Assembly (NCBI RefSeq): GCF_009711055.1
Contig: NZ_WMJY01000008.1
Location: forward strand, 1 to 64,000
Origin: Myroides pelagicus
Lineage (GTDB): Bacteria; Bacteroidota; Bacteroidia; Flavobacteriales; Flavobacteriaceae
DNA: 64,000 bases
Direction: 5' to 3'
Below, piece by piece: positions 43,273 through 55,066 of the stretch. Numbering within the stretch: the first letter of the stretch is position 1; each line of letters starts with the position of its first letter. The notes beneath the pieces are model-generated. The model saw only the letters and a program-made list of their open reading frames with translations. It ran no database searches and was not told the DNA's origin. The position numbers and the translations under genes were made by a program.

Positions 43273-43899
43273 ATGAATACGATCGTTATTCACCCAACAT
43301 ATTTTCCTTCAATAAGTCACTACGTAGCAATGCTACAAAGCGAATCAATACTTCTTGAAGTTGAAGATAACTTTCAAAAACAAACCAACCGAAATAGAAT
43401 GTACATTTACAGTGCGAATGGTATCCAAATGCTAAACATACCGATCAAACATAGTAAATCAATTCACCAGAAGTTTAGAGATGTTGAAATAGAAGATGCT
43501 TTTGGTTGGCAAAAACAACATTTTAAGAGCTTAGAAGCTGCTTATCGTACATCGCCATACTTCGAATACTTTGAGGACGATATACGCCCTATATTTGAAA
43601 ATAAACAGAAATATATGATGGATCTTAATTTGCAGATTCATGAGGTTATTACTGAATGTTTAGGTATAACCTTACCATATGAAAAAACATTAGAATATCA
43701 CAAAACCTATGATAATGACAATATTCTAGATTTTAGAAATCTTGTTAATGGTAAAAAAGACGAAAATCAGTTTACATCGTATACACAAGTTTTCGAAGAA
43801 AAGGAAGGGTATCTAAACAACTTAAGTATTCTAGATTTACTATTCAATGAAGGAAGACATGCCATAGACTATCTTAAGCAACAAAAACTAGTCTACTAA
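43273..43899 (+). CDS. WbqC family protein
   Basis: The 208-residue protein has the WbqC-like N-terminus IHPTYFPSISHYVAMLQSESI and RNRMYIYSANGIQMLNIPIKH. These are followed by the AYRTSPYFEYFEDDI block typical of the family. WbqC proteins occur in polysaccharide and glycosylation loci; the precise role is not known, and the fixed position after lepB is conserved in flavobacteria. The gene ends at a good terminator. Confidence 0.9.
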   Translation: MNTIVIHPTYFPSISHYVAMLQSESILLEVEDNFQKQTNRNRMYIYSANGIQMLNIPIKHSKSIHQKFRDVEIEDAFGWQKQHFKSLEAAYRTSPYFEYFEDDIRPIFENKQKYMMDLNLQIHEVITECLGITLPYEKTLEYHKTYDNDNILDFRNLVNGKKDENQFTSYTQVFEEKEGYLNNLSILDLLFNEGRHAIDYLKQQKLVY

Positions 43900-43908
43900 T
43901 AATAAAAT

Positions 43909-43937
43909 AAAAGAGGTAAGCAATGCTTACCTCTTTT
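43909..43937 (+). terminator. Intrinsic terminator of the parA-WbqC block
   Basis: A perfect 13-bp inverted repeat (43909-43921 and 43925-43937) with a 3-nt loop lies 10 bp after the WbqC stop and ends in T residues. Confidence 0.85.
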
Positions 43938-44296
43938 GCGTCAAAGTGTTTCTACATATTAAAAAATACGTAAATCTTTCCCATAATAACAGATCGTTAT
44001 CCTACCAAATTAACATATCTGCCTTTATACTTTAGACAAAAAAAATTACAAAAGTCACATTAGTACACGACAAATCAGTCTATCAAATCACTTTCAATAC
44101 TATTGCAATTAATTATTATTACCACACCCAACCTATAAATAAGTAGACTAAAATTACAGAGTGCATACCTAGATTACTATTGACGAAAAGTGATCTAAGA
44201 AAGGGTAGCAAAAAAACACAACCATACATACAAAAAGAAACCAATGATGTAGTGGAAAAAAGCTTTACAATCGTAATTCAGGTCAATTGATTTACT
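43938..44296. other. Gene-free interval with a decayed repeat relic
   Basis: No gene supported. At about 43980-44007 the sequence CCATAATAAC-AGATCGTTAT-CCTACC resembles the first 30 bp of the downstream 221-bp repeat (CCATAAAAAAAG..AGATCGTTATGACCTAC). It may be an old extra copy; the rest is AT-rich and unrecognised. Confidence 0.35.
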
Positions 44297-44300
44297 CCAT

Positions 44301-44394
44301 AAAAAAAGTAGATCGTTATGACCTACTTTTTTTAATTCTTCTTTTCATAGCTTTTACTAGATGTATCACAATCCACTTAATCCTCATCTAGTAT
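44301..44394 (-). ncRNA. Predicted small RNA, repeat unit 1
   Basis: On the minus strand TTG (44428-44426) and TAAGTTTTG (44408-44400) with a 17-bp gap form a promoter-like pair. The transcript would start at the TACTAGATG...CATCTAGTA stem-loop and end at the GTAG-stem terminator with a T run at 44307-44301. This is a structural prediction only. Confidence 0.35.
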
Positions 44395-44520
44395 ACGAAC
44401 AAAACTTATCAAACCTTTTTCATAGCAATATGTTTTTTTGCTTGTTCTACTATTAAGACAACCAATAGTGTATTTGGTCACTTCTTTTTTGCAAAAACAT
44501 TCGTAACGACATATATCCAT

Positions 44521-44614
44521 AAAAAAAGCAGATCGTTATGACCTACTTTTTTTAATTCTTCTTTTCATAGCTTTTACTAGATGTATCACAATCCACTTAA
44601 TCCTCATCTAGTAT
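44521..44614 (-). ncRNA. Predicted small RNA, repeat unit 2
   Basis: Same layout as unit 1: TTG at 44648-44646, TAAGTTTTG at 44628-44620, 9-bp stem-loop at 44575-44613, terminator at 44521-44553. One C-A mismatch lies in the terminator stem relative to units 1 and 5. Confidence 0.35.
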
Positions 44615-44741
44615 TCGAACAAAACTTATCAAACCTTTTTCATAGCAATATGTTTTCTTTGCTTGTTCTACTATTAAGACAACCAATAGTGCATTTGGTC
44701 ACTTCTTTTTTGCAAAAACATTCGTAACGTCATACATCCAT

Positions 44742-44835
44742 AAAAAAAGCAGATCGTTATGACCTACTTTTTTTAATTCTTCTTTTCATAGCTTTTACTA
44801 GATGTATCACAATCCACTTAATCCTCATCTAGTAT
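44742..44835 (-). ncRNA. Predicted small RNA, repeat unit 3
   Basis: Same layout shifted by 221 bp; the sequence of promoter-like boxes, stem-loop and terminator is identical to unit 2. Confidence 0.35.
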
Positions 44836-44962
44836 TCGAACAAAACTTATCAAACCTTTTTCATAGCAATATGTTTTCTTTGCTTGTTCTACTATTAAGA
44901 CAACCAATAGTGCATTTGGTCACTTCTTTTTTGCAAAAACATTCGTAACGTCATATATCCAT

Positions 44963-45056
44963 AAAAAAAGCAGATCGTTATGACCTACTTTTTTTAATTC
45001 TTCTTTTCATAGCTTTTACTAGATGTATCACAATCCACTTAATCCTCATCTAGTAT
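44963..45056 (-). ncRNA. Predicted small RNA, repeat unit 4
   Basis: Same layout shifted by a further 221 bp and identical in the boxes and structures to units 2 and 3. Its neighbour unit 5 keeps the terminator stem but has lost the TTG and the TAAGTTTTG box. Confidence 0.35.
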
Positions 45057-45373
45057 TCGAACAAAACTTATCAAACCTTTTTCATAGCAATATGTTTTCT
45101 TTGCTTGTTCTACTATTAAGACAACCAATAGTGCATTTGGTCACTTCTTTTTTGCAAAAACATTCGTAACGTCATATATCCATAAAAAAAGTAGATCGTT
45201 ATGACCTACTTTTTTTAATCTTCTTTTCATAGCTATTACTAGATATCAGACATTCTATCTGGTAGTAGAACTAACGTATCAAACCTTTTTCATAGCACTG
45301 TTTTCTCATAGTTCTAAGGTTTAGACTACTATTCTGTAAAAAGTCACTAAAAAAAGCTAAAAAAGAGAAAATA

Positions 45374-46078
45374 TCAACAATTCGGTTCGGAACGAACGAA
45401 TAAATTTAGTGTATCTGGTGATAGAAAAGGAATATCTAACCCTAACCCTCTAACAATAAATAGCATACCGAAAATAACGATAATGATTGGATAATACTTC
45501 AGAATTGCCCCCCTAACTTTCATAGAAAATAGATCACGCACATAAATCATCAAACTCATCAAAGGAATAGTACCTACACCAAACAGAACCATATAGAGCA
45601 TTCCATACAGAATACTTTGAGTAGATAATGCGCCAAACAAGGCGACATAGACCATTCCACAAGGCAAAAAGCCATTAAAAAATCCGATTGTATAAAGAGA
45701 GGATGTGGTCTGTTTCTTAAACTGCCTACCTAATGCTTGCTGAATTTTAGATACTAGTTTATAAAAAGGCATCAAAAAATTAAGTTTACCAAGCTTACTC
45801 TGGGGTACCAAAACAAATAAGATCATTAGAATACCGACTATAATCGAAACTTGCTGTTGCAAACCAGCTAAAAACAACCCTTTTCCAAAAATACCAAACA
45901 CAAGCCCTAAAATAGAATATGCAGATATACGACCTAAATGATAGGTCATAATCTGCATAACTTTTTTAGCTTGATTATCACGAGAGACTGGTAGCATTAT
46001 AGCAATTGGTCCACACATTCCAATACAGTGTAAACTACTTACTAAACCAAAAACAAGTCCTGTTAAAATCACAAGCAA
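45374..46078 (-). CDS. DsbD_2/TauE-SafE-like membrane protein of the cbb3 cluster
   Basis: The 234-residue protein has six TM helices with the two Cys motifs of the UreH-like/DsbD_2 family, HCIGMCGP (17-24) and a LPCGMVY block in the second half. The paired motifs repeat the SSLHCIGMCGP and NGFLPCGMVY pattern seen in copper- or thiol-transfer proteins beside ccoGHIS genes. It probably serves copper supply or redox chemistry during oxidase assembly. It is last in the minus-strand cco gene series, 14 bp after ccoH, and ends right beside the repeat array, whose unit 5 hairpin could terminate it. Confidence 0.8.
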   Translation of the reverse strand: MLVILTGLVFGLVSSLHCIGMCGPIAIMLPVSRDNQAKKVMQIMTYHLGRISAYSILGLVFGIFGKGLFLAGLQQQVSIIVGILMILFVLVPQSKLGKLNFLMPFYKLVSKIQQALGRQFKKQTTSSLYTIGFFNGFLPCGMVYVALFGALSTQSILYGMLYMVLFGVGTIPLMSLMIYVRDLFSMKVRGAILKYYPIIIVIFGMLFIVRGLGLDIPFLSPDTLNLFVRSEPNC

Positions 46079-48175: not shown

Positions 48176-49165
48176 TTATATAGCTGATTCTTCAGTAGAG
48201 GCTACTTCTCCTGCTGGAGCTACTTGTTCTGCTGGAGCAGATTCCTCTGCTGGAGCTGCATCAGCTGCTCCTTCTTCTAAATTAGCTTTTGACCAAATAA
48301 TATCTCCTTCTGGAGCTTTTGCATCAGCTGGGTTTGTACCATTAAGTGAAATTACATAAGATGCAATTTTCTCAATTTCAGAAGGCTTAAAGTTATTTTT
48401 CCATGGAACCATTCCTTTTCCTGGTCTACCACCCTCAGAAATAGTATGGAAAATATTTTTAATACCTCCACCTAAGATCCAATGATCATCAGTTAGGTTC
48501 GGTCCAATAGATCCACCACCATCAATTTTGTGACAAGCCATACAGTTAGAATCAAATAACTTCTTACCTACCGCTAAATCAGCTGGATCTGTTAAATATT
48601 TAGCATCGTCCGCTGTCAACATATCAGGAGCATTCTTTTTATACTCTTCAATTTGCAGCTGAGCTTCCGCTACTGATTTCTCATATTCTACAACTTGATT
48701 ATCACCATCGAAAACGTGGAATCTCAATAGGTATATTACAGAGAAAATAATAGTTACGTAGAATAAACCTACCCACCATGGTGGTAACTCATTATTTAAC
48801 TCTTTAATTCCATCGTAATCATGATCCATCATTACGTCAGCCTCCTCTTGGATTGTTTTAGTTTTAGTTAATTTACTCATTAACTTTTTAACCCAAGGTT
48901 GTTGAGAGAAAGGAAGACTAGTCTCTGCTTCCTTAGCTGCTCTCTCTTCAGGAGTCATTAATCTATCTAAAATTTTATTTGTAGCAGAAGCTACAATCTC
49001 AACTGCAATCAAGGCGAATAAGAATAAACCTAACAGGATCAACACTACAGGATGCTCCATAAAAGCAGGTTTCTCACCATCTCCACCTACTAACCACTCT
49101 ACTGCAAAGAAAAACAAGGCAAATAAAAGCGGTACTCGTACATATACTGGAAAAAACTTTTTCAT
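48176..49165 (-). CDS. ccoP: Cytochrome cbb3 oxidase subunit CcoP, monohaem
   Basis: The 329-residue protein has two N-terminal TM segments (about 10-27 and 38-58), a third (about 130-148), and a single cytochrome c domain with CMACH (208-212). A possible Met ligand lies in GKGMVPW. Proteobacterial CcoP has two haem c groups; only one is visible here. The C-terminal 40 residues are Ala/Pro/Glu-rich (ADAAPAEESAPAEQ...). It overlaps the stop of ccoQ by 4 bp. It receives electrons from the c-type pool at the periplasmic face. Confidence 0.93.
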   Translation of the reverse strand: MKKFFPVYVRVPLLFALFFFAVEWLVGGDGEKPAFMEHPVVLILLGLFLFALIAVEIVASATNKILDRLMTPEERAAKEAETSLPFSQQPWVKKLMSKLTKTKTIQEEADVMMDHDYDGIKELNNELPPWWVGLFYVTIIFSVIYLLRFHVFDGDNQVVEYEKSVAEAQLQIEEYKKNAPDMLTADDAKYLTDPADLAVGKKLFDSNCMACHKIDGGGSIGPNLTDDHWILGGGIKNIFHTISEGGRPGKGMVPWKNNFKPSEIEKIASYVISLNGTNPADAKAPEGDIIWSKANLEEGAADAAPAEESAPAEQVAPAGEVASTEESAI

Positions 49166-54319: not shown

Positions 54320-54352
54320 TATGACATTTATCATAAAAAATAACTATCTTTG
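54320..54352 (+). promoter_or_regulatory. Promoter and palindromic site of the Crp/Fnr gene
   Basis: TATCTTTG (54345-54352) matches the -7 box. The dyad TATGA-N6-TCATA (54320-54335) overlaps the -33 region and is centred about 17 bp before the -7 box. Its size and symmetry resemble Crp/Fnr-type sites (TTGA-N6-TCAA). Self-repression or control by another Crp/Fnr protein is likely, and it could also influence the divergent ccoI promoter. Confidence 0.45.
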
Positions 54353-54382
54353 TTTAATCTTTTAACAGATATAAAATATTTT

Positions 54383-55066
54383 ATGGGTAGATGTGAGCAA
54401 TGTATTATTAGAGAATTTAGTTCTTTAAAAGCTTTAACTCGAGAAGAACTAGAAACAATCTCAGAAACGAAAAACCATTTCATCGTTAGAAAAGGAGAGG
54501 TTCTATTTTTTGAAGGAGACAACCTCAACGGAGTATTTTGTGTGAAATCTGGTTTTTGTAAACTGACAAAACTAAACTCTAACGGTAAGGATACCATTAT
54601 CAAGCTTGCTAAAGGTGGTGAACTTTTAGGACAAAGATCTATTATCAATGAGGAAACCTCAAACCTTACAGCGACTGCGTTAGAAGATATGCAAGTGTGT
54701 TTTATTCCCAAAAAAGAAATGTTAGACTATTTTGCTGATAACAACAAATTCTCTTTGTTAGTTACCAGAGATATTTGCAATCATTTAAAAGATGCTGATA
54801 AAGGTCTTGCTGATCATACACACAAAACTGTTCGTGAAAGACTTGCCATTATTCTATTAAAACTAGAAGACCTAGGTGGTGTTAATCCTGAGACTAAAGC
54901 CCTTAATATCCAGTTATCAAGAGAAGACTTAGCTAATATGGTTGGAACAGCAACAGAGAGTTGTATTCGCCTATTATCTGATATGAAGAAAGAAGGACTT
55001 ATTCAACTATCTGGTAAGAAAATCATTTTAGTTAATAAATCTGAGCTTAAAAACTTAGCACAATAG
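54383..55066 (+). CDS. Crp/Fnr family transcriptional regulator
   Basis: The start MGRCEQC at 54383 gives 227 residues; an upstream in-frame extension to 54350 is less likely. It has a cyclic-nucleotide-type beta roll (about 28-125) and a C-terminal winged helix with EDLANMVGTATESCIRLLSDMKKEGLI. Cys residues C4 and C7 (RCEQC) plus two more in GVFCVKSGFCKL could hold a redox-active iron-sulfur cluster as in Fnr, though E. coli Fnr spaces them differently. Divergent placement from ccoI suggests it regulates the cbb3 cluster in response to oxygen. Confidence 0.9.
   Translation: MGRCEQCIIREFSSLKALTREELETISETKNHFIVRKGEVLFFEGDNLNGVFCVKSGFCKLTKLNSNGKDTIIKLAKGGELLGQRSIINEETSNLTATALEDMQVCFIPKKEMLDYFADNNKFSLLVTRDICNHLKDADKGLADHTHKTVRERLAIILLKLEDLGGVNPETKALNIQLSREDLANMVGTATESCIRLLSDMKKEGLIQLSGKKIILVNKSELKNLAQ

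Follow-up and report, generated by a model that had tools for sequence, protein, structure and literature searches.

At the end of the cbb3 operon of Myroides pelagicus, five units are arranged in tandem, each of which we regard with moderate confidence as a separate small-RNA gene. The genes would constitute a new family of the order box, stem P1, motif and terminator, which was amplified here and whose products may act in trans and in a dose-dependent manner. Comparison of sequences indicates that the family is present in Myroides-type genomes, with five copies here versus one or two in relatives; the copy number of the array is that of one draft assembly (3.34 Mb in 103 contigs).

The array and its neighbourhood

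The array lies on the minus strand of the window (the 64,000-nt stretch of DNA that was analysed), in the intergenic region 3' of the FixG/CcoG, FixH and DsbD_2-domain genes of the operon (Table 1). Tandem Repeats Finder yielded a repeat at 44296-45244 with a period of 221, 4.3 copies and 98% matches. The first-pass annotation of this DNA had described a tandem repeat of four near-identical units, and such units are present: units 1-4 (44296-45178) measure 220-221 bp each and, with unit 4 (44958-45178) as the reference, the identity is 100% over 221 bp for unit 3, 100% over 219 bp for unit 2 and 98% for unit 1. The count of four was too low, however. A fifth, diverged unit at 45179-45347 (82% identity to unit 4 over the matched part, positions 79-221) carries the box, P1, both GCTATGAAAA copies and the terminator, and a sixth GTGAC..TTGTCTAAA site marks a probable decayed sixth unit at 43909-44058, which is without the GCTAT motif. 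The identity of units 2, 3 and 4 over 219-221 bp supports the recent amplification or gene conversion that had been proposed. With at least two near-identical units in tandem, each having a conserved box upstream and a terminator of its own, the array resembles tandem/sibling multicopy sRNAs as far as sequence goes. In a genome of the same genus (G020) this pair of genes flanks two units, and a third site there is comparable to the decayed sixth unit. Elsewhere in the window, 18-bp tandem repeats occur at 48201-48269, at the 3' end of a ccoP-like gene.

Table 1. Features of the array and its flanking genes (positions in the window).
Feature	Position	Strand	Basis or remark
Last gene of cbb3 operon (DsbD_2 domain)	45374..46060	-	conserved upstream neighbour of array
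Unit 5 box GTGAC-N16-GTCT	45320..45347	-	ECF-like promoter inferred
Unit 5 predicted RNA, ~135 nt, P1 GAACUA/UAGUUC	45183..45317	-	start inferred
Unit 4 box GTGAC-N17-GTCT	45116..45144	-	pattern match
Unit 4 predicted RNA, ~151 nt	44962..45112	-	start inferred
Unit 4 P1 5' arm GAACAA	45105..45110	-	centroid fold only
Unit 4 motif 1 GCUAUGAAAA, inside P1	45079..45088	-	motif search
Unit 4 P1 3' arm UUGUUC	45059..45064	-	centroid fold only
Unit 4 hairpin 2 (9-bp arms of first-pass annotation), lineage-specific	45017..45055	-	comparison and fold
Unit 4 motif 2 GCUAUGAAAA	45004..45013	-	motif search
Unit 4 terminator hairpin	44962..44996	-	fold
Unit 3 box	44895..44923	-	pattern match
Unit 3 predicted RNA, letters same as unit 4	44741..44891	-	start inferred
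Unit 2 box	44674..44702	-	pattern match
Unit 2 predicted RNA	44520..44670	-	start inferred
Unit 1 box	44453..44481	-	pattern match
Unit 1 predicted RNA	44300..44449	-	start inferred
Decayed sixth unit (probable), box	44031..44058	-	RNA would end at terminator 43909-43937
WbqC-family gene	43273..43899	+	convergent neighbour of array

Upstream box and RNA structure

Comparison resolves a unit into the box, a covarying stem (P1) with GCUAUGAAAA inside it, in most cases another copy of the motif that contains GCUAU, and the terminator. The box, GTGAC-N16/17-GTCT, precedes 18 of 18 compared units; because this box also helped to locate the units, a fairer figure is that of 10 out of 11 Myroides-titled records, obtained with synteny as the anchor. 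The exact pattern GTGACN{13,16}TTGTCTNAA has six matches in this genome, five in the intergenic region of the array and one at an unlinked second RNA gene (C38:14644), versus none for the reversed control. It is matched in 82 of 299 genus genomes, but the reversed control matches in many too, so that in other genomes the pattern alone proves nothing; for this reason we anchored the survey on the last gene of the operon. With up to two mismatches the genome has 8 matches versus 11 for the reversed control, and single relaxed matches therefore mean little. Matches of GTGAC..TTGTCT at six loci (L077, L081, L084, L086, L087 and L093) appeared by eye to lie inside conserved coding sequence and were left out, as were other scattered matches across the genus genomes.

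Since the box is shared by the array, the second RNA and AraC-type genes, we read it as a promoter class. Its spacing and GTC element, which we take to be of the ECF-sigma type, suggest an ECF-type promoter; a -35/-10 pair of this kind, as seen in all 18 compared units, is what would be expected of an ECF-sigma-dependent sRNA. The genome has 11 Pfam matches to sigma genes, and the sigma ORF was caught in ten of them (not L196), one of which looks like the primary sigma factor. A search upstream of these ten ORFs tied no ECF gene to the box, the two box-like matches being weak and unconvincing (L192 at -176; L197 at -79).

The first-pass annotation had envisaged a 94-nt RNA, transcribed from a TTG-N17-TAAGTTTTG promoter, which is sigma-A-like in form, and had suggested a role in microaerobic control from the proximity of the Fnr-like regulator. 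Such boxes are present in units 1-4, units 2 and 3 having the same letters there as unit 4. In the form TTG-N15..20-TAnn(n)TTTG, however, the promoter was found in 2 of the 18 compared units (units 1 and 4 of the array) and is missing from the other 16, GTGAC..GTCT being conserved instead. The proposed promoter also lies partly over motif 1 and over P1 at its 3' arm. The 94 nt would be the 3' part of a longer RNA, with a predicted length here of ~135-151 nt, the 5' P1 domain having been left out. The Fnr-like regulator was correctly noted (a Crp/Fnr-type gene at 54350-55066 with cNMP_binding and HTH_Crp_2 domains), but no Fnr-like site (TTGAY-N4-RTCAA, up to one mismatch) was found between 43156 and 47179, and the unlinked second RNA has the same box. 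A microaerobic role thus found no support beyond synteny, and we judge this model as a whole to be very improbable; because the place of the units beside the cbb3 operon is kept in Myroides, some link to the operon may nevertheless exist. The small-RNA reading survives, since another conserved box replaces the failed promoter and the units share no conserved ORF. Over window positions 1-64000, the Fnr-like pattern had 27 matches at up to one mismatch versus 14.7 expected (0 of 100 shuffles had as many).

P1 begins 6-8 nt after GTCT in the 18 compared RNAs, and transcription would start just before it. In an arm-swap test, in which the 5' arm was taken from the fixed segment nt 8-18 and own_u0, unit 2 of the array (same as unit 4) and the second-locus RNAs were set aside, native arms paired with a mean of -9.9 kcal/mol versus -6.0 kcal/mol for swapped ones; 0 of 20000 permutations were as good, both for 18 RNAs and for 12 representatives. 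In alignment A2 (11 RNAs), 81.8% of cells pair versus 73.9% in shuffles, and the covariation score is 0.245 versus 0.120 (0 of 500 shuffles as high in either case), figures that are optimistic given the relatedness of the RNAs. In four of the ten pairs both partners had changed, a count that is not significant by itself (50 of 500 shuffles), and sliding the partner by +3 as a control still gave a covariation score of 0.207. P1 is weak in units 1-4, with whose arm 13 of 17 foreign segments pair better; in unit 4 it is seen in the centroid but is absent from the minimum-energy fold, which contains it in unit 5, in a further relative (G018) and in M. odoratus.

The 9-bp stem-loop and the terminator described by the first-pass annotation both fold in units 1-4 (z -4.3 to -5.3; 0 of 200 shuffles as stable). 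The 9-bp hairpin, however, does not occur in the M. odoratus group or in unit A of M. albus and, on this comparison, is a local, lineage-specific elaboration. The GCUAUGAAAA motif is nearly invariant while the surrounding stems change; it occurs twice per RNA and ten times in the array, the M. indicus unit having motif 1 only. In that unit (L116:4706-4829) an extra hairpin is inserted between the 5' arm of P1 and motif 1.

If motif 1 were the start codon of a small peptide, the units would be short coding genes. Seven of the 25 genomic GCTATGAAAA sites that were read do fall at gene starts, and a boxed gene of another genome (G146) begins TTGCTATGAAAAA. Frames opened at motif 1, however, span 4 to >40 codons and end in unrelated ways, and an ATG is missing both from motif 2 in the M. 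odoratus group and from part of the second RNA. With frames that vary and an ATG that some members have lost, a coding function is not what keeps the motif constant. The stretch ...AIEK..KK.. shared by four M. odoratus-group members is explicable by common motif 2 letters, and a peptide gene is hardly credible.

Distribution of the family and other boxed sites

With the last gene of the operon as anchor, the best 80 of 365 loci were each read up to 1,100 nt downstream. At this gene, M. albus is the closest named relative among these 80 (86%). Box and GCTATGAAA were found together in 10 of the 80 loci, all among the 11 Myroides-titled records; they were not found downstream of the gene in M. 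guanonis (L123), nor downstream of the operon in the other 69 loci, Flavobacterium psychrophilum (L184) included, four of which have a box-like match without the motif.

In six loci that were read (L109, L116, L119, L120, L121 and L122) the box starts 15-19 nt past the last stop of the operon, and a terminator hairpin closes each unit. The units might accordingly be seen as a 3'-terminal structure of the cbb3 operon, combining terminator and mRNA stabiliser, duplicated by slippage and without action in trans. We consider this quite improbable: a conserved 5' box and P1 are unnecessary for termination, and both the G018 RNA and the yicC-linked second RNA sit at other loci.

A covariance model built from 11 RNAs to describe box, P1 and motifs had matches at E <= 0.01 in 14 genomes out of 398 of the genus and, at the level of the order, this genome alone among 246; both searches used stricter filters, with which weak matches are lost. 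The matches number five here, two in G020 and one in each of the other 12 genomes, and take in RNAs outside the training set. In G194 the match is the second locus, the cbb3-linked unit scoring E 0.031. The G018 RNA (L270), likewise outside the training set and at another locus, has a 13-bp P1, CAGAAUAGCUUAA/UUAAGCUAUUCUG, around UUGCUAUGAAAAGAG, followed by a terminator; this P1 is unrelated in sequence to those of the model RNAs and yet encloses the same motif, which supports the proposed unit architecture. Outside the Myroides set, a box in G285 (L100:3694-3870) is followed by a brief segment closed by a terminator, which scores weakly (E 0.047) and is perhaps another boxed sRNA.

Rfam 15 gave 0 matches in the 64-kb window at the gathering cut-off, and the best matches at a permissive threshold were far below the cut-off, none of them credible; the lone gathering-level match among the compared loci is a tRNA in L079. 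A phage collection yielded one 30-bp match and a plasmid collection none.

The second RNA gene (L102:5645-6246) has the same box together with ATTGCTAT, which by eye sits in an apparent hairpin. Counterparts are present in eight other genomes (L073, L075, L082, L085, L088, L090, L252 and L253), the box reading TGTGTCT in L252 and L253, and long stretches are conserved only within subgroups. The downstream gene, seen in eight of nine loci, is yicC-like. A box also precedes AraC-type genes, a pair of them in G020 and in G242 and one seen in G320 (Pfam was run on G020 only). In three relatives (L074:3676, L078:3270 and L265:1501) the conserved box has a TPR-protein gene on one side and AraC-type regulator genes on the other. 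A box-like GTGAC..GTCC in G146 (L262:1500-1590, minus strand) precedes the gene whose start, like the RNA motif, reads TTGCTATGAAAAA; this gene looks aquaporin-like.

Mode of action and relation to known systems

In the small-RNA reading that we favour, the box would act as an ECF-type sigma promoter and the RNA would act in trans, its exposed GCUAUGAAAA motifs serving as the contact site for target mRNAs. On induction the array would raise the dose of the RNA, and the second RNA gene, which shares box and motif with the array, would respond to this signal as well. We infer that the amplification here probably serves dosage. More tentatively, and with considerable doubt, one may envisage a Myroides-lineage ECF-type regulon with mainly noncoding outputs: two unlinked RNA genes sharing the box and the GCUAUGAAAA hairpin motif, plus AraC-type regulator genes, with one RNA gene, located where the cbb3 operon ends, serving as a dose knob through a copy number that varies among species (1, 2 or 5).

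Taken as a target signature, the sequence complementary to the loop motif has 37 genomic sites versus 15 for the reversed control. Ten of the 37 lie in the array, and reading 25 of the 27 others at locus level revealed no conserved target. The one site at most 60 nt upstream of a start (-18, before a symporter-like gene in L223) is not kept in 11 other loci that were read, and the gene was rejected as a target. This outcome would also suit a protein decoy, in which the repeated GCUAUGAAAA titrates an RNA-binding protein and does not pair with mRNAs, much as CsrB titrates CsrA through a repeated motif. The near-invariance of the motif amid changing stems and its ten copies in the array are in keeping with a decoy, which we nevertheless think unlikely: there is no candidate protein, RRM_1 not having been found in this genome (a Bacteroides ihuae control was positive), and the M. 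indicus unit has motif 1 only.

The regulatory RNAs of Flavobacteriia have been little studied. With a structure supported by covariation, an upstream box that can be recognised and copy numbers that differ naturally between species, this family could reveal which sigma factor is responsible for a class of Myroides noncoding RNAs and show whether the copy number of tandem sRNAs tunes a response. The first-pass annotation had regarded the array as undescribed in this group; in agreement, the open-licence literature searched on small RNAs of Myroides and Flavobacteriaceae held no description of such an array or of this RNA. The RNA family thus appears to be new, tandem sibling sRNAs as a kind being already known from NsiR1, LhrC, CcsR and NmsR.

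LhrC copies of Listeria monocytogenes are partly in tandem and under envelope-stress two-component control. As described in PMC6794450, the five LhrC1-5 sRNAs (111-114 nt) resemble the array in copy number, in a redundant short contact motif and in additive action, but belong to another phylum and direct their UCCC motifs at Shine-Dalgarno sequences, a feature missing from Flavobacteriia. NsiR1 of Nostoc sp. PCC 7120, likened here by description and not by sequence, comprises tandem sRNA copies with individual promoters bearing a special motif, the central copies identical and the peripheral ones diverged as in our array; this cyanobacterial RNA differs in its length of ~60 nt, its 12 copies, its DIF1 motif and its antisense position to the hetF 5'UTR at one end (PMC9045159). 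NmsR is another tandem sibling case (PMC5362039). CcsR1-4 of Rhodobacter sphaeroides are likewise four homologous sRNAs under stress sigma factors, but are processed from one precursor with ccaF1 (PMC8307010), whereas each unit here has its own box and terminator. Among flavobacterial sRNAs, Rfp11 and Rfp18 of F. psychrophilum were compared by description only; an ECF-type motif with a CGT box, SM6, precedes Rfp11 among others (PMC9723704), while the box and motif of the array are absent from the syntenic place in that species. Within Bacteroidota, FopS of Bacteroides thetaiotaomicron is also a multicopy sRNA family, with 14 dispersed members that have a single-stranded 5' seed followed by a terminator, have sigma-A-type promoters and are bound by RbpB (PMC11697453); the units described here differ in having the 5' stem P1 in place of the single-stranded seed, another box and a genome without RRM_1.
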